NCBI GenBank assembly: GCA_946636615.1
Contig: CAMPBE010000001.1
Coordinates: 1-64,000 of the forward strand
Length of the DNA stretch: 64,000 bases
Direction: 5' to 3'
From: an uncultured bacterium
GTDB taxonomy: Bacteria > Cyanobacteriota > Vampirovibrionia > Gastranaerophilales > Gastranaerophilaceae
Part shown: one piece after another, positions 37,294-45,412 of the stretch
How the letters are laid out: each line of letters begins with the position of its first letter
Numbering within the stretch: the stretch's first letter is position 1
Notes under the pieces: model-generated
The model's database searches: none
Told to the model about the DNA's origin: nothing
The model's input: only the letters and a program-made list of their open reading frames with translations
Translations under genes and position numbers: made by a program

Positions 37294-38034
37294 ATGAAGA
37301 AAGCGGTTACTTTATTTATAATAATGCTTCTAATGAGTTCAGCAACTTTTGCTGTAGGTTACGAAAAAATAACTCCAGAGTATTTAAAATCTTCTCAAAG
37401 TACAAGTTATGAGCTTGTTAATGAAACATTAGCTATTATATTTAATAAGATAAAACCTCAAATTAGAACAAATAAATACCCTAAATATTTTGTTGATTAT
37501 AAATTGATTGCAGATGATGGAACGCAAAGTAAGAATTACAAATATGTGAAAAGTGGCAATGCTGAATTATTGTATACGGTTGATACAAATGAATTAAAAT
37601 ATGTGGCATTAGTTTGTCCTGAATTACAAAAATGTAGAATATTGTATGATTATCCAGAAGGAAAGCTGCATGCAGTACAGGTTTATGTATCAAAAGATGA
37701 ATATTTTACGTTTGGCCCTGACGGCAAATATGTTGATTATACTCCTTACGTAAAATCAGTACATGAAAAGGTGCAAAAAAATTGGAAAGTTCCAAAAAGA
37801 AAACAAATAGAAGCTCTTGCAAAAGGTCAAAAAGATTTGTTGGTTCAATTGGCGGTTACCGTTGGCAGGGATGGTAATGTTAAAAAGATGCTTGTGTTAA
37901 AATCTTCTAAAATAAGAGATTTGGACAACAATGCAATAAGTTCGGTTAAATTAGCTGCGCCGTTTGATGCTTTCCCTGAGAATTTTTTTAATGATGAAAT
38001 AGTAATTACGCTGAATTTTAATTTTAGCTTATAA
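37294..38034 (+). CDS. Exported TonB C-terminal-like protein
   Basis: The 246-residue protein has a signal peptide (VTLFIIMLLMSSATFAV). The C-terminal 90 residues fit a TonB-like fold: VQKNWKVPK, LAVTVGRDGNVKKMLVLKSSKIRDLDNNAISSV, then EIVITLNFNFSL. The central part (40-140) has repeated Tyr and no known motif. It lacks a membrane helix with a Pro-rich linker, so it is not a classical TonB. An AAGGA SD precedes it. It overlaps the convergent ATPase gene by 6 bp. Confidence 0.75.
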   Translation: MKKAVTLFIIMLLMSSATFAVGYEKITPEYLKSSQSTSYELVNETLAIIFNKIKPQIRTNKYPKYFVDYKLIADDGTQSKNYKYVKSGNAELLYTVDTNELKYVALVCPELQKCRILYDYPEGKLHAVQVYVSKDEYFTFGPDGKYVDYTPYVKSVHEKVQKNWKVPKRKQIEALAKGQKDLLVQLAVTVGRDGNVKKMLVLKSSKIRDLDNNAISSVKLAAPFDAFPENFFNDEIVITLNFNFSL

Positions 38035-40977
38035 TTCTAAACCGTTGAGTTGGCAGAATGAACGTAATACATTTTGAGCTTTTTTAAGGTCTTTGTATAC
38101 ATATTTATTTTGAGTTTCTTCTATAAGAACTCTTGCCATGGCATACAATTTATCTGCGGTCTGAAGATAATTTAGTTGGTGTTTAGATTTGACAAGCCCT
38201 ACTTCTTGATAATATTTACCGTATAACAGATATAATCTTGATAATATATCTTTAAGATTATATTTTTTAGCAATCATTATTGCGCTTTCAATGTTTATTT
38301 TAGCTGTTTCAAAATCTGATGTTGTAATACAGCATTTTGCAATAACTGTTTTTAACAATATTGTAAAGAAATAATTATCAATTTTTGGATTTTGAGCTAC
38401 AGCAAGAGCCTGCTCTGCAATTTCCATTGCATTTTGAGGACCTTCTATATCCAATGTCGCGTCGGCTATCAAAAACCAAGTTAGCAATGCGCCAAGAGCC
38501 ATTTTTTCTTTTGCAAAATAAGCAATCTGGTCATTATAGATATTCATTGCCTGTTTTGTATTGTCGCTATCTCTAAATACTTTTCCTAATAAAGTTTTCA
38601 GAATATTTTTTGTAAAATTATCACCGTTATTATTGGCAAAAGTTACAATTTGGAATAAATCTTCTTGCATACGATTATAATTTTTTCTAAAGAAATTATT
38701 GATTATGTTTATAAAATTCCATCTTAAAATTGTCATGTTATCCATAACATTTTCTCTGTACAATTTTAATACTTCTTCAAGAATTTTTTCAGAAGCTTGG
38801 AAATTTCCTTTCATGGTGTTGGCAAAAGCAAGTGTCAATTTGGTTTTGCATATAAATAATTCGTCTTGAATGTTGTTGCGTTCAATAATTTCAAAGATTA
38901 TGGTTAAAATTTCAAAAGCTCTGTCGTTACCTTGAAGAACAAGTGCGTTAGCTAATGTCAAATATGTTTTTAGCCAAGTCTCGTATAATAATGGTGCACG
39001 AGAATCTCGCATGCAACTCTTTTTGCTAAAAAATTTGTCAAATACAGGCATTATTTCGTTATCTATCATATTTATAACTTGGCCACAGTTTCCGATATTT
39101 AACAGAGCATTAAGCTTTGTAGTTTTTAAAAGAGCTATTTCAATTGTATTTTCCGGCTTTGTTTTTTCCAATACGGAATCAACACATTCGACTTCTCCAA
39201 AATAATTACCTGTTTTTCTGCAGCAAGAAGAAAGATATGCCAATAATTCAATTTCTCTTGGACTATCACCTATTGCTTGGGCATTAGAAATTGCATCCGG
39301 TAAGTATTCCATTGCTTCTTGAGGATTTGAATTTGCAAGAAGCTTGCCAAGGCGCTCTGATATATTGTATCTGATTTTTAAAGTCTCACTCTCGTCAAGC
39401 TCATTGATCAATGCCATTGATTGTTTTTGTGAAATTGCATATAAATTTAAATCTCCTACATATGCGGCTAATCGGGTGTTTTTGCTCCAAATATCCAATG
39501 CTAATTTAGGTTGCTTTAAATTTTGGGCAATTATGCCTAAAATGGCATGTGAATTTAAAGTGAAAGCTGAAAGATATTTAAATATTTGTTTATTAATTTT
39601 GTCGTAATTTTCATCTTTTGATGCTGTTTTTATAATTGTTTCCCACAAAAGTTGAGATGAAAATTCAAAATATATTTCATTAACAGGGTTGATATAGTTC
39701 ATATTTTTTAAATATATAAGAATTTTCTTAAATTTTTTATTGTCAATATTAAAAATTTCTTTTAAAAGATTAACATTTATTTTATCTCCTATAATAGCAG
39801 ATGCGAGTAAAACATTGTATGCATTGGGGTTCAAATAAGATAAAAGTGCCAAACGATGTTCTAATAAAGATTTGAATGTTGTACCGAGCTCAAATGGTTG
39901 TTCGCTTAATACACAATCATTTTTTAAACAAAGTGCGTGGTTTATATATGATGGGTTGCCTTTACTGATTTTATAAATTTCTTGTAGTTCAGATGTTGAT
40001 ATTTGTGGAAAATTTTTTATCTTTTTTGTTTTTTGGTTTGTTAACAATGTTAGTTGCTTGTATTCAAGCGGTGCAATGCATACATCTAAGTATATACTGT
40101 CTTCTCTGTTGGTCTGGAAATAAAAATAACCCTTTGATGGCTTAGCTTCATTGTATAAAAGAAGTAGTTTTAAATTTTTCCAAACATTTTCATTTTTAAT
40201 ATATCTGTTTATAAATTCATATGAAAAGCCGTCTATAAATTCAAAATTATCTATTACAAAAATAAATTTTTTAGATTCAATAATTTTGTCAAATATTTTA
40301 TTTAAAAAGTTAAAAGTTTTATTTTTACAAGTTGCTATATCTTCAAATATTCCTTCTTTTGTTGGGTATAAAAAATTTAGCAAATCAAAAATTTCATTAC
40401 TATTTAATTCAGGAAATTCATTTGTAAAATAATCGGATGCATCCTGTTTGAATTGCAAATTATCTATGCAAAAATTGGGTAACTTAAATATATTTAATAA
40501 TATATCTTGAATAATTCCGCCAGGTGTTATTTGTGTTATTGGAGTACACTTGCCGTACAACCATAAATAATCTTTAAGTTCTTTGACTATTGTCTTTAAT
40601 ACAAGGCTTTTACCGCTACCTTTTTCTCCGCATATTGAAAAAATCTTTTTTTCCGGTGATGATATCCCTTTTATTATAAGTTCTTTCGCACTTTGCTGAG
40701 ACACCATATTAGCACAGTATTCAAGTGTAATGTTGTCGGTTATTGCCGGTTTTTCAAAAGAATAACCGCATTTTCTGCACTTATCTGTATTAGGGAAATT
40801 TACGCTGCTACAATTGGGACAAAGTTTTAGAATTTCTGTTCCACATTTTTTACAATTATATTCAAATAAAGAATTAATAGTCCCGCATTTTTTACAAATC
40901 AACCCGGTACGAGCCTTACAATAAGGGCATTTTAGCGTATTGTCAGGAATTGTTTTTTTACATATAGGACAAATCAT
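38029..40977 (-). CDS. Zinc-ribbon / STAND-type ATPase / TPR protein
   Basis: The 982-residue cytoplasmic protein has three zinc ribbons in its first 72 residues (CPICKKTIPDNTLKCPYC, CKKCG...CKKCG, CPNCSS...CRKCG). An AAA/STAND-like ATPase follows with Walker A GEKGSGKS near residue 119 and Walker B FVIDNFEF near residue 240. The remaining 500 residues are TPR-like helices. The layout resembles ATPases joined to adenylate cyclases or LuxR regulators, but no output domain is present. The start overlaps the sigma-factor stop (TAATG), so expression is coupled. It may sense a ligand and control the sigma factor (inference). Confidence 0.75.
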   Translation of the reverse strand: MICPICKKTIPDNTLKCPYCKARTGLICKKCGTINSLFEYNCKKCGTEILKLCPNCSSVNFPNTDKCRKCGYSFEKPAITDNITLEYCANMVSQQSAKELIIKGISSPEKKIFSICGEKGSGKSLVLKTIVKELKDYLWLYGKCTPITQITPGGIIQDILLNIFKLPNFCIDNLQFKQDASDYFTNEFPELNSNEIFDLLNFLYPTKEGIFEDIATCKNKTFNFLNKIFDKIIESKKFIFVIDNFEFIDGFSYEFINRYIKNENVWKNLKLLLLYNEAKPSKGYFYFQTNREDSIYLDVCIAPLEYKQLTLLTNQKTKKIKNFPQISTSELQEIYKISKGNPSYINHALCLKNDCVLSEQPFELGTTFKSLLEHRLALLSYLNPNAYNVLLASAIIGDKINVNLLKEIFNIDNKKFKKILIYLKNMNYINPVNEIYFEFSSQLLWETIIKTASKDENYDKINKQIFKYLSAFTLNSHAILGIIAQNLKQPKLALDIWSKNTRLAAYVGDLNLYAISQKQSMALINELDESETLKIRYNISERLGKLLANSNPQEAMEYLPDAISNAQAIGDSPREIELLAYLSSCCRKTGNYFGEVECVDSVLEKTKPENTIEIALLKTTKLNALLNIGNCGQVINMIDNEIMPVFDKFFSKKSCMRDSRAPLLYETWLKTYLTLANALVLQGNDRAFEILTIIFEIIERNNIQDELFICKTKLTLAFANTMKGNFQASEKILEEVLKLYRENVMDNMTILRWNFINIINNFFRKNYNRMQEDLFQIVTFANNNGDNFTKNILKTLLGKVFRDSDNTKQAMNIYNDQIAYFAKEKMALGALLTWFLIADATLDIEGPQNAMEIAEQALAVAQNPKIDNYFFTILLKTVIAKCCITTSDFETAKINIESAIMIAKKYNLKDILSRLYLLYGKYYQEVGLVKSKHQLNYLQTADKLYAMARVLIEETQNKYVYKDLKKAQNVLRSFCQLNGLEL

Positions 40978-41540
40978 TATACCAGTGCCTGTCTAATTTC
41001 ACCCATTAATTTGAATAGTCGCTTTGAAACTTCAGATTGTGATATGCTTAATTCATCAGATATTTCTTTTTGAGTTAAGCCGTGTTCATATCTTAAATAA
41101 TATAATTTTAAATAATTTTTGTCAGGATTACTTTTATCAATTTCATATACAGAATCTGAAATTTTTTGTAATATATCTTTTTTTAATGCTAAATCTTCAG
41201 GAGTATCAATAATATCCACAGGTTCATACACTATTTTTATGTTTGAATAATTTGGTATTAGGGCTTGTTCTTCAATCGAAATTGTTTTTGTTGGAACAAA
41301 ACTGCCCTGACTGCGTCTTAAACGACCTTCATTTTTTAGCACATTTAGAATTGATGTGGTTGCAATCTTTTTTAGGTATGCTTCTAAAGTAGCATCTGAC
41401 GTGATAGTTTTAATAATTAATAAAGATCTTTTGCATGTTTCGTTAAAAAAATCTTCATACAAATCTTCATTATTTGTATATTTTCTATCATTTTTTATTA
41501 TTTTTTCAATTAAATTGATTTTGTCCTGCTCTAATTCCAC
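40977..41540 (-). CDS. ECF-like sigma-70 family factor
   Basis: The 187-residue protein resembles small alternative sigma factors. The N-terminal half has region-2-like helices (ATLEAYLKKIATTSILNVLKNEGRLRR). The C-terminal half has a clear region-4 helix-turn-helix (YYLRYEHGLTQKEISDELSISQSEVSKRL). The start is GTG with GGAG upstream. The downstream ATPase gene starts on its stop codon, and the TonB-like membrane protein lies 34 bp upstream. It presumably directs RNA polymerase to its own regulon; promoter sequence unknown. No anti-sigma zinc protein is adjacent. Confidence 0.8.
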   Translation of the reverse strand: MELEQDKINLIEKIIKNDRKYTNNEDLYEDFFNETCKRSLLIIKTITSDATLEAYLKKIATTSILNVLKNEGRLRRSQGSFVPTKTISIEEQALIPNYSNIKIVYEPVDIIDTPEDLALKKDILQKISDSVYEIDKSNPDKNYLKLYYLRYEHGLTQKEISDELSISQSEVSKRLFKLMGEIRQALV

Positions 41541-41574
41541 AATAAGGTCTCCGTTTACCTAAAGTATATCATAA

Positions 41575-44500
41575 TTAAAAGTAAATGATAAGATTTAGGC
41601 TCAATTCCTTGCCTTTAACGTCTTCGACAGGCGGTTTTATGGCATTTAAAGTTTCTTTAACAGATTGTAACACAATATTGTCAATTTGGCTAGAGCCACT
41701 GCTTGAAATTATTTTTACAGATTGTATGGAACCGTCTTTCCCAAATACAATACCGGTCTTTACGCTGTCTGCATATGCGTATTCTGTTGCTAATAATAAA
41801 TCTGTAGATAATGTTAATTTTATGCTTCTTCCTGTTGTTCTTAGGTAATTTTGCATTCTTGTGCTATATGATATATTATCAGGAACATCCCACACCAACT
41901 TACTTACTGACATATATGCGGTAGATATAGGTTTTTGTGTCAAATTACTTTTTAGCTCCTTAACAACTTGTTTTTTTGTTGTTTCTTTTGTCTGTTTTAC
42001 ATCAGGAGCGTTTGTTTTTAGTACATTTTCAATATTGTTATTATCTTCTGTTATTTTATCAGTTTTTGCATTATCGGAATTTTGGGATTTATCTGATGTT
42101 ACGGGTTTATCAGTGTTATTTGAAATTTTGTTATCTGTCAATGCGGAAGACGAATTATTTGGCAATGGTTCGAAATCTGCAACGTTGTTGTCTTTCGGTT
42201 TAATAAAATAGAAAGCTGAAGCAGCAGCTATAAGTCCAACCATAACCGCAGCTAAAATAAGTATTTTGCCGCCGGATTGTTGTTTTTGTTGGTTCATAAT
42301 AGGTGCTCCCACAACTGCAGGGTCAGGCTCTATATCTTCAAGTTCTTCTATATCGCCGAAAGATTGAGTAGCATCTTGAGCTGATTCTTCAGATTCTGTG
42401 TACAATACATCTAAATTTTCGCCTTCAGCTTCAGACTCCTCAGATGGTGTTGTGTTTTCTGTATCTAACAGTTCTTCAACGAAATCTTGAGGTTCAGATG
42501 TATTAACATCTGTCGTATCAGCTTCTGCTACTTCAGTTTTGTCGGTTGTAGAAGGCTCGATACCATCTGGGATTACATTTTCAATGACGGAATTTTCTTG
42601 TAAAACTTCAGATTCCAAATGGCTATCGTCAGTTTCGTTTATAAAATTATTTGTTGTTGTCTGAACTGTATTATCGTTTTTTTTATTTTGCAATACAAGA
42701 TCTTCTAAATCAGATGTTTCAACGTCAGTTGTCGATAATGTATCAAGCAAATCTGTTCCTTCTATGTTGTCTTCCTGTTTTATTGGTTCTACAGGTGTAT
42801 CAGACAAAGCTGCTTTATCTATAATGTCATCAACTTGAGATAATAGGTCTTCGTTAACTGATTGTTCTAATTTTATATCATTTGGGGGAATAATATCTAT
42901 TCCATCTATTAAAATATTATCATCATCTTCTTCTGAAAGATTTCCTAAAAGATTTTTGCCAAAACTTTCGGAAGAATTTTCTTCAGAATCTATTATTAAA
43001 TCTTCAGTATTGCTATCATCTACATCTAAACCAAAAGCTCCAATTATATCTCCGCCGACATGCGAATCATCTATATCATCTAATGAGATGCTATCATCTA
43101 ATCTTGAATCAGGTTTTTCTTCAGGGAATGTATCCATATAAGAGCTTTCATCATCAAGATCTAATTGAAAATCTTCTTCTTTATCTTCAGGAATATCAGG
43201 AATATCTATTGTTTCTAATGAAATCGCATCTTCAGGTAATGTATTATTTTCAACAACATTTGTATCTACGTCAACATCATTAAGCGCAACTGCGTCTTCC
43301 AGGATATTACCTTGCAATTCTGATATGTCGAAGTTATTATCCAAAATTTCATTTTCATTTGGTAAATCAAACTTTTCGATTGGTTCAACCTTAACTTCTT
43401 CAACAGTTTCATTAATGCTGACATTATCTACAGAGATTGCATCTTCAGGTAATGTATTATTTTCAACAACATTTGTATCTATGTTAACATCATTAAGTGC
43501 AACAGCATCCTCCATAATATTACCTTGCAATTCTGATATGTCGAAATTGCTATCCGAAATTTCATTTTCATTCGGTAAATCAATTGTTTCATTCTGTTCT
43601 ATATTATTATCATTATTAATATCATTAATAACATCTTCAGCATTGTCAGATGCTAAATCAACTAAATCTTCAGCCATATCAGAAGCTTTTTCGATTATTT
43701 CTTGAGCATTAGCAGATGTTGTTTCAACAATATCATCAATTATAGGCTCTGCTCCTGCAGCCATTCCTGCAGATGCCGTAGCAAGCCCTGCAGCAGTAAT
43801 TGTTGTACCTGCATCTGCATCTGAATTTAACAAGTCTAAAGAATCAGTGTTTTCAATCTCATTTGTTTCTTGTTCTTCTGCTGGTTCAACTAAAATGCTA
43901 TCAAGGTTATCCAAATTTATATCTTCATTAAATCCGTTTTGTGCATCTGTGTTTTCAATAATTTCTGTTATATCTGATGCTTCAGGATTGATATTTTCTT
44001 GTGTTAATATATCGAGGGTTTCATTATCTGTATCAGTTAAATCTGTTGCAGAATTTTCATTAAAGGATTCAAACTCATCAACAGGTGTAATATCCTGCGC
44101 AATATTGTGCTTATCAACAGATGGATCGGTCATTGCCTTGTATGACAATATTTCAAATGTTTCGTATTCAATAAATTTTTCTCTTAATTCAGAATTATTT
44201 GTTAATTGTTCTAACAAATATTTTTTATTATTTTCCGATATGTCATCGTCAATCATAGAAATAATAAGATCTTCACATTTTTCTATAACTTCTGAAGATA
44301 AACTTGTATCTTTTCCGGATTTATTAGATTCAATGTATTTTGCTAAATCCAATGCCGGACTTAATTTTTCTTTTTCAATAAAATAATATTCATCATTGGC
44401 ATTATTTTTATTTATCAGTTTTGGTTCAAAAAAGCCCAGAAATGCAACATGTGAATAATCTTTTTCAATTTTTAAAACAATATAAATGTCAGGAACAAGC

Positions 44501-44808
44501 CCGTATTCAAAATGTGACTTTGGAACAAAAATAGCATTTTCATCAAATACAACTCTTACATCAATATTAATTCCATTAAGTTTAATATCCGCAATATCAA
44601 ATTTTTCAATAATTTTCTTTATTGAATGCATATTTTTCAAATCTGATGTATCAATATTTTCAGAGTTTAAGTATTTTATACCCAATTCTGCGCCAAGAGT
44701 GTTTGTGTAAACTCTGTTCTTGATATCGTTATTAGTAAAAAAGTTTGCAGCAACGCTTGCATCGTATTTTTGTTTATCATCAATATAAATAAGAGTTTCT
44801 TGTTCCAT
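41575..44808 (-). CDS. Long acidic TonB-like membrane protein
   Basis: The 1077-residue protein starts with a folded domain of about 215 residues containing VPDIYIVLKIEKDYSHVAFLGFF, reminiscent of DUF1822 proteins of Cyanobacteria. A 600-residue acidic, Asp/Glu/Asn/Ser-rich linker follows with an in-frame duplication. One transmembrane helix is near residue 863 (GGKILILAAVMVGLIAAASAFYFI). The last 90 residues form a TonB-like domain (GIVFGKDGSIQSVKIISSSGSSQIDNIVLQSV). The N-domain should therefore be cytoplasmic and the TonB-like domain periplasmic. GGAGGG lies upstream of the ATG. It is the first gene of the sigma-factor operon. Confidence 0.75.
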   Translation of the reverse strand: MEQETLIYIDDKQKYDASVAANFFTNNDIKNRVYTNTLGAELGIKYLNSENIDTSDLKNMHSIKKIIEKFDIADIKLNGINIDVRVVFDENAIFVPKSHFEYGLVPDIYIVLKIEKDYSHVAFLGFFEPKLINKNNANDEYYFIEKEKLSPALDLAKYIESNKSGKDTSLSSEVIEKCEDLIISMIDDDISENNKKYLLEQLTNNSELREKFIEYETFEILSYKAMTDPSVDKHNIAQDITPVDEFESFNENSATDLTDTDNETLDILTQENINPEASDITEIIENTDAQNGFNEDINLDNLDSILVEPAEEQETNEIENTDSLDLLNSDADAGTTITAAGLATASAGMAAGAEPIIDDIVETTSANAQEIIEKASDMAEDLVDLASDNAEDVINDINNDNNIEQNETIDLPNENEISDSNFDISELQGNIMEDAVALNDVNIDTNVVENNTLPEDAISVDNVSINETVEEVKVEPIEKFDLPNENEILDNNFDISELQGNILEDAVALNDVDVDTNVVENNTLPEDAISLETIDIPDIPEDKEEDFQLDLDDESSYMDTFPEEKPDSRLDDSISLDDIDDSHVGGDIIGAFGLDVDDSNTEDLIIDSEENSSESFGKNLLGNLSEEDDDNILIDGIDIIPPNDIKLEQSVNEDLLSQVDDIIDKAALSDTPVEPIKQEDNIEGTDLLDTLSTTDVETSDLEDLVLQNKKNDNTVQTTTNNFINETDDSHLESEVLQENSVIENVIPDGIEPSTTDKTEVAEADTTDVNTSEPQDFVEELLDTENTTPSEESEAEGENLDVLYTESEESAQDATQSFGDIEELEDIEPDPAVVGAPIMNQQKQQSGGKILILAAVMVGLIAAASAFYFIKPKDNNVADFEPLPNNSSSALTDNKISNNTDKPVTSDKSQNSDNAKTDKITEDNNNIENVLKTNAPDVKQTKETTKKQVVKELKSNLTQKPISTAYMSVSKLVWDVPDNISYSTRMQNYLRTTGRSIKLTLSTDLLLATEYAYADSVKTGIVFGKDGSIQSVKIISSSGSSQIDNIVLQSVKETLNAIKPPVEDVKGKELSLNLIIYF
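43219..43584 (-). repeat. In-frame duplication in acidic linker
   Basis: Two copies of about 150 bp (51 codons) lie 213 bp apart (exactly 71 codons). Both encode LPNENEI...NFDISELQGNI and EDAVALNDV...LPEDAIS. The DNA copies are nearly identical, which suggests recent duplication. Confidence 0.9.
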
Positions 44809-44965
44809 AATTTTATCCCTCCAATTAATATGATTACAGATGATAAAAAATTATTCCAAAAATATTGTAAATTTTTGTAACAATTATTGAAAACCTTACA
44901 ATTTTCCGTCAAAATAATTCTATCAGTCGTTTTTTATATTTAGTGTGTTAAAAGGAGGTAATTCC

Positions 44966-45412
44966 ATGATAGATGCTGTTTCTAATGTTAATTTTCGCGG
45001 AGATGTTGCAGGTTCTAATGATATAATTAATGCACCAAGCAAGTTTTCTGTGCAAGCTCCTATCTCAGATACTCCTGCAGATTCTTTTGAAAAAGCTGGA
45101 ACTGAAGAAAGTAAAAAATCAGGTAACGGATTGGCTGTTGCAATTGGTGCCGCAATCGCCGCAATAGCAATATTTGCAGGATTAGGTTACGCCGTAAAAA
45201 ATGGTAAATTAGAAAAAGTAGATTTAGATAAAACTGAAGGTTTCTTCAACAAAGCATGGGCAAGAGTTAAAAATGCCGGTGTATATATTGGAGAAAAAGC
45301 AAACAGTTGCTACGAAACTGTTGCAGGTTGGTGCGGCAAAGAAGTTAAAGATGCAAAAGATGCAAAGGCTACAACTGAGGCTGCAACTGAAGCGGCTGCT
45401 GAAACAAAATAA
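44966..45412 (+). CDS. Small membrane protein with NFRG start motif
   Basis: The 148-residue protein begins MIDAVSNVNFRGDVAG, with no classical signal peptide. One glycine/alanine-rich transmembrane helix (AVAIGAAIAAIAIFAGLGYAV) is near residue 55. The C-terminal part is amphipathic and ends in an Ala/Glu/Thr/Lys-rich tail. A consensus AAAGGAGGT SD is six bases before the ATG at 44966, so the ORF-track start is not used. It diverges from the sigma operon. Function unknown; the N-terminal motif recurs in other proteins here. Confidence 0.65.
   Translation: MIDAVSNVNFRGDVAGSNDIINAPSKFSVQAPISDTPADSFEKAGTEESKKSGNGLAVAIGAAIAAIAIFAGLGYAVKNGKLEKVDLDKTEGFFNKAWARVKNAGVYIGEKANSCYETVAGWCGKEVKDAKDAKATTEAATEAAAETK

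Follow-up and report, generated by a model that had tools for sequence, protein, structure and literature searches.

The window, that is, the whole stretch of 64,000 nucleotides analysed here, comes from the genome of an uncultured member of the Gastranaerophilaceae, assembled in 83 contigs for a total of 1.66 Mb. Three genes follow each other closely, encoding a membrane protein, an ECF-type sigma factor and a zinc-ribbon/STAND NTPase/TPR protein (hereafter, the ATPase); the genes, the parts of the membrane protein and the elements upstream of the operon are collected in Table 1. The first two genes are separated by 34 nt, and the TAA stop of the sigma gene shares one base with the ATG of the ATPase gene (TAATG). 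The earlier note on this DNA had described three tightly packed genes with the ATPase start overlapping the sigma stop: the open reading frames confirmed the packing, the coordinates and the strand, and the overlap was found to be real, but of 1 nt only. On the ATPase side, a secreted-looking TonB_C protein of 246 aa is encoded on the forward strand (37294-38034), with its stop overlapping that of the ATPase gene, a neighbourhood not kept in relatives. At the other end, a small single-TM protein (44945-45412, forward strand) is divergent from the operon and lies beside it in many relatives. No RNA families or tRNAs were found within the window.

Table 1. Features of the three-gene locus, in window coordinates.
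Feature	Position	Strand	Basis
Zinc-ribbon/STAND NTPase/TPR gene	38029-40977	-	ORF, 982 aa
ECF-type sigma gene	40977-41540	-	ORF, 187 aa, start GTG
Membrane protein gene	41575-44808	-	ORF, 1077 aa
TonB_C-like domain, residues 958-1077, predicted periplasmic	41578-41937	-	Conservation and profile scans
Predicted single TM helix, residues 849-867	42208-42264	-	Hydropathy scan
Acidic linker, residues 233-840	42289-44112	-	Composition, low conservation
Degenerate class I anti-sigma domain, residues 172-227	44128-44295	-	AF2, Foldseek, orthologues, hhalign
DUF1822 domain, residues 1-161	44326-44808	-	PF08852, profile-profile match, AF2
Predicted operon promoter GGAATA-N14-GTAATC (ECF-type -35, -10)	44832-44857	-	Conservation; start codon at 44808
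Conserved element TTACAAAAATTTACA upstream of the promoter, perhaps an operator or UP-like element	44866-44880	-	

The claimed layout also holds in relatives. The order membrane protein-sigma-ATPase was observed in 100 of 100 close-relative loci of Gastranaerophilales, wherever the contig reaches, with gaps mostly of 29-40 nt between the first two genes and of -11 to 20 nt between the second and the third. In a smaller set of 20 loci from about 11 genera the order was constant while the outer neighbours varied, and most of the divergent genera retaining the sigma gene show the same order. Since all 100 relatives preserve the order and differ in their flanks, the association of the three genes is more than chance. 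Several sister genera encode the membrane protein with no sigma gene beside it; such orthologues have among their neighbours an aminotransferase (L342, L348) and a glycosyltransferase (L353). At L044 and L176, both from one genome, and at L180 and L372, the gene of the membrane protein is broken into two frames.

The earlier calls of an ECF-like sigma factor and of a zinc-ribbon/STAND-ATPase/TPR protein were both borne out. The sigma protein matched TIGR02937 (sigma70-ECF) over residues 19-186 with an E-value of 1.4e-15, and Sigma70_r4 with 2.6e-7; as in the ECF layout, it is short and has regions 2 and 4 only, region 2 alone giving a weak match (0.017). The gap between the two regions, about 60 aa or slightly more, exceeds the 50 usual in ECF sigma factors (PMC11119718). 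In the ATPase, matches were obtained to a double zinc ribbon (1.3e-7), AAA_16 (1.1e-4) and TPR (8.2e-9); 12 invariant cysteines make up three CxxC..CxxC ribbons (residues 3-70), a Walker A motif lies at 117-124, and, among 21 orthologues, AAA_16 was recognised in 19 and TPR_12 in 17. The best fold match in the PDB of its AF2 model (pLDDT 86.7) was 6mfv, a STAND-TPR protein (E 3.2e-11). Family scans of the ATPase gave no cyclase, DNA-binding or defence match, and PADLOC found no significant defence-system match for either the ATPase or the membrane protein.

The sigma gene is single-copy in its own genome. It was found in 268 of 383 genomes of the family (E<=1e-10) and, in a class-wide sample, in 52 of 146 genomes, all belonging to the window's own genus or family. 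When the sigma alignment was used for a scan, most of the named relatives retrieved were Candidatus Gastranaerophilales/Melainabacteria MAGs; a search for relatives of the sigma on plasmids found none. In genus g67 the sigma genes encode much longer products, of 582 aa (L344:7897-9645) or 476 aa (L347:8842-10272), the former with a long acidic repeat insert between the region 2-like and region 4-like parts. About ten proteins of the window's genome exceed the cut-off for sigma region 4, and an ordinary zf-HC2 anti-sigma gene (G000:C17:31962-32264) lies beside a gene for a 201-aa sigma in the same genome; the three-gene unit is therefore not the only sigma switch of this organism.

As for the expression of the operon, GGAATA was present in 78 of 78 close-relative upstream regions, and in all the 63 of these 78 with a match to the -10 pattern a GTMATC-like sequence follows at a spacing of 14 nt, a conservation that, inside one clade, is partly due to shared ancestry. 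The same promoter form, searched as a strict pattern, precedes the operon at 7 of 15 divergent loci that retain the sigma gene, and at none of the sigma-less ones examined. Just upstream of the GGAATA promoter, close relatives carry TTACAAAANTTTACA, and the element listed in Table 1 is 94-100% conserved at nearly every position over the 78 upstream regions; its other genomic copies pointed to no coherent target genes. Since relatives have an ECF-type promoter, GGAATA-N14-GTMATC, in front of the operon, the latter is likely autoregulated by its own sigma factor, which would recognise this sequence. The pattern GGAATA-N14-GTNATC has one exact match in the window's genome, at the operon itself; in five congeners there was one match each in three, and 3-4 in two. 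The reversed control pattern also gave 0-1 matches per genome, so that this search for a regulon beyond the operon tells only that no exact copies were found elsewhere in the window's genome.

The membrane protein had been read in the earlier note as an N-terminal domain, possibly DUF1822, followed by a long acidic linker, one membrane helix and a TonB-like end, and all these parts were recovered by composition, hydropathy and profile scans. The PF08852 match of the window's protein lies close to the threshold (E 9.4e-6, 25.4 bits against a cut-off of 25); the same profile matched 21 of 21 orthologues (best 1.2e-12), and the profile-profile comparison (hhalign) with cyanobacterial DUF1822 gave a probability of 95.8 and an E-value of 7.9e-9 over 143 columns. 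Foldseek matches of this domain to a restriction-endonuclease-like fold were of low probability only, and were left unused. The linker contains 29% D/E and 2% K/R (orthologue medians 28% and 3%), and a motif search detected in it weak, genus-level motifs only. Within it, about 70 residues (DLPNENEI...LPEDAIS) form a tandem repeat of two near-identical copies (43200-43580); moreover, residues 333-355 are Ala/Gly-rich and hydrophobic, in some orthologues only, and might be a second membrane-associated segment. By hydropathy, exactly one TM helix is found past residue 250 in 88 of 92 orthologues. The last ~115 residues are well conserved among orthologues, and their TonB_C score was 22 bits in the protein scan, below the cut-off of 24.6, and 28.2 bits in the genome scan, above it. 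The cytoplasmic nature of the N-terminal domains, together with the single TM helix, suggests that the N-terminus is inside and the TonB_C-like domain outside. We rejected a TonB energy transducer, which has a short cytoplasmic tail, a TM helix, a Pro-rich spacer and TonB_C, because more than 800 residues, including DUF1822 and the anti-sigma helices described below, precede the TM helix.

According to the earlier note, no ordinary anti-sigma gene is present, and the layout suggests that the membrane protein and the ATPase take over the usual anti-sigma and sensor roles. The first part of this statement had to be revised, as a degenerate zf-HC2-type domain sits inside the membrane protein; the same domain supports the idea that the membrane protein has the anti-sigma role. 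In the AF2 model of residues 1-245 (pLDDT 88.9 overall, pTM 0.83), three helices (172-186, 192-204 and 206-227) form a bundle; within these 245 residues the model has no counterpart of the fourth helix that binds sigma2 in known class I domains. When this model was compared with the PDB by Foldseek, the matches of highest probability were MucA anti-sigma chains (probability 0.75-0.94, E 0.85-2.4); the best, 8z6g_A, combines a probability of 0.94 and a TM of 0.67 on MucA with a poor E of 0.85, and no match fell below E 0.001. The zinc ligands Hx3Cx2C are absent in the window, being replaced by Q201, N205 and L208, and sister-genus orthologues have them at the equivalent positions in ungapped register. 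The motif occurs in 30 of 237 alignment rows, some of which are duplicate loci of one genome. PF13490 (zf-HC2) was matched by 9 of 10 zinc-plus orthologues tested, 7 of them above the curated cut-off (best 9.3e-7), and the genes of several zinc-plus orthologues are immediately followed by the same sigma and ATPase genes. At other loci (L342, L343, L345, L346, L348, L349, L353) the intact motif is found in the orthologue and the sigma gene is not adjoining. In an unrooted tree of the DUF1822 part alone, one single branch (99/96) divides the zinc-plus from the zinc-minus forms, so that loss of the ligands in the window's clade would be the simplest reading. Moreover, the zf-HC2 profile of the phylum aligned by hhalign to the helices of this clade over 42 columns, scoring 21.4 against 18.6 for the best of 65 decoys. 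Orthology thus traces residues 172-227 to a zinc-type anti-sigma domain.

The clade's own helices had no match to an anti-sigma domain in the Pfam scan, a profile search of PDB sequences with the window's helices reached no anti-sigma chain, and hhalign to the single sequence of E. coli RseA gave the same register, not significantly. A mean-field coupling analysis of sigma and N-domain (148 pairs, Meff 81) yielded no clear signal: among the 40 strongest inter-protein pairs, 15 fell within the anti-sigma region, where 10.9 were expected. Since the helices themselves lack a Pfam match and the E-value to MucA is poor, the case is built on the orthologues and on the fold, which indicate that the membrane protein is likely an anti-sigma factor.

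We therefore favour, with a rough probability of 0.68, an autoregulated ECF sigma switch in which the membrane protein is the anti-sigma factor and the ATPase most likely a co-sensor or adaptor. As a hypothesis for the full mechanism, the zinc-less class I helices beside DUF1822 would hold the co-encoded sigma off RNA polymerase, and the TonB_C-like domain, across the membrane, would report an envelope condition, a signal suggested by the predicted topology alone. The signal would alter the membrane protein, by conformational release or by proteolysis, and the freed sigma could then transcribe its own operon from GGAATA-N14-GTMATC. The co-translated ATPase would promote or gate the release from the cytoplasmic side, in the place that CHAT proteins have in cyanobacteria.

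The ATPase might instead be the main regulator, binding sigma or the anti-sigma domain in the cytoplasm and switching with ATP and a cytosolic ligand, with the membrane protein as a mere anchor. It shows the same degree of conservation as the sigma gene (46-76% identity to the window over 21 loci), its gene starts before the sigma stop codon ends, and STAND switches of the MalT, Apaf-1 and Avs3 type are among its fold matches; however, the anti-sigma-type domain belongs to the membrane protein, and the divergent loci L374 and L385 keep membrane protein and sigma without an adjoining ATPase gene, which makes this arrangement rather unlikely.

The place of DUF1822 in the preferred switch can be compared with that in other Cyanobacteriota. 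DUF1822 was found in most sampled oxygenic cyanobacteria, at 1-9 copies per genome, and in family f1, and was absent from the other sampled, listed families of the window's class. In 20 of the first 30 DUF1822 loci fetched, which are the best-scoring and hence an uneven sample, the adjoining gene matched the sigma profile of the window's family, and two more matched TIGR02937. At further cyanobacterial loci the neighbour is a protein of 220-255 aa that no library assigned confidently to sigma factors; at L074, L076, L077, L079 and L081 these proteins occupy the sigma position upstream of DUF1822. Ten genes downstream of DUF1822 were scanned, and nine encode CHAT proteins (four with CHASE2, three with a periplasmic-binding domain) and one a chloride channel. 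Neighbourhoods of ECF sigma and DUF1822 have been mentioned in passing (PMC8195603). Since in oxygenic cyanobacteria DUF1822 genes also lie beside sigma or sigma-like genes and ahead of CHAT genes, the window's unit resembles a diverged version of a cassette found across the phylum, with the zinc-ribbon STAND-TPR ATPase replacing CHAT. More tentatively, DUF1822 could mark an undescribed, phylum-wide sigma-regulating module with a constant sigma and an interchangeable sensor-switch as third gene (CHAT with CHASE2 or periplasmic-binding domains, or zinc-ribbon STAND-TPR), in which STAND and CHAT proteins might control sigma directly.

These neighbourhoods, in which the DUF1822 proteins examined have no zf-HC2-type segment, and the loss of zinc ligands in the window's clade also speak for an alternative in which the helices are an inherited remnant devoid of anti-sigma activity, DUF1822 binding sigma and perhaps acting as a positive regulator. 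We judge this improbable, as D187, R209, F218 and E219 stayed near-invariant in orthologues after zinc loss, and as Hx3Cx2C, found in about 56% of known class I domains and missing from about 44%, is optional (PMC7406223).

The unit is a new form of known ECF sigma/anti-sigma signalling. Class I anti-sigma factors (zf-HC2/ASDI: ChrR, RsrA, RseA, MucA, RsiW) share with it a three-helix cytoplasmic domain, one TM helix, an extracytoplasmic domain and a gene beside that of the ECF sigma, in zinc-plus and zinc-less members (PMC7406223); here, by contrast, DUF1822 precedes the anti-sigma domain, an acidic linker of ~600 aa precedes the TM helix, the periplasmic domain is TonB_C-like and a STAND ATPase is co-encoded. 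The cyanobacterial cassettes (for the ECF sigma and DUF1822 neighbourhoods, see PMC8195603) have DUF1822 beside a sigma or sigma-like gene and a large multidomain third protein, in the order sigma-DUF1822-CHAT, where CHAT comes with CHASE2, periplasmic-binding, TPR or HEAT parts and the DUF1822 protein has ~320-500 aa; in the window, instead, the DUF1822 gene precedes that of sigma, its product also carries the anti-sigma, TM and TonB_C parts, and STAND-TPR takes the position of CHAT. SigG-SapG of cyanobacteria is likewise an ECF-like sigma co-transcribed with a regulating binding partner (PMC2758279); a multidomain membrane/STAND layout does not appear in the parts of its description available to us. 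Anti-sigmas of the FecI/FecR type and dual-membrane-spanning ones likewise combine a helix in the inner membrane with a periplasmic part that receives the signal; here the long segment is on the predicted cytoplasmic side. TonB-dependent cell-surface signalling of the FecI/FecR type, with the TonB_C-like domain touching an outer-membrane transducer, would fit the anti-sigma, TM and periplasmic TonB_C-like layout, but it is improbable, given that the conserved unit includes no receptor gene. Finally, STAND NTPases (PH0952/6mfv, MalT, Apaf-1, Avs) have an NTPase followed by TPR or other repeats as well, whereas the ATPase described here begins with three zinc ribbons, lacks any recognised effector or DNA-binding domain and has no significant defence match. 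Among the papers of the library searched, none combines Gastranaerophilales with 'sigma factor'.

On the reading that we prefer, DUF1822, present in most sampled oxygenic cyanobacteria, gains a testable role in the control of sigma factors. The same reading illustrates how an anti-sigma domain can hide in a large membrane protein once its zinc site is lost, and would tie a STAND switch, a type familiar from immunity and cell-death proteins, to the signalling of sigma factors in an uncultured lineage of the gut.
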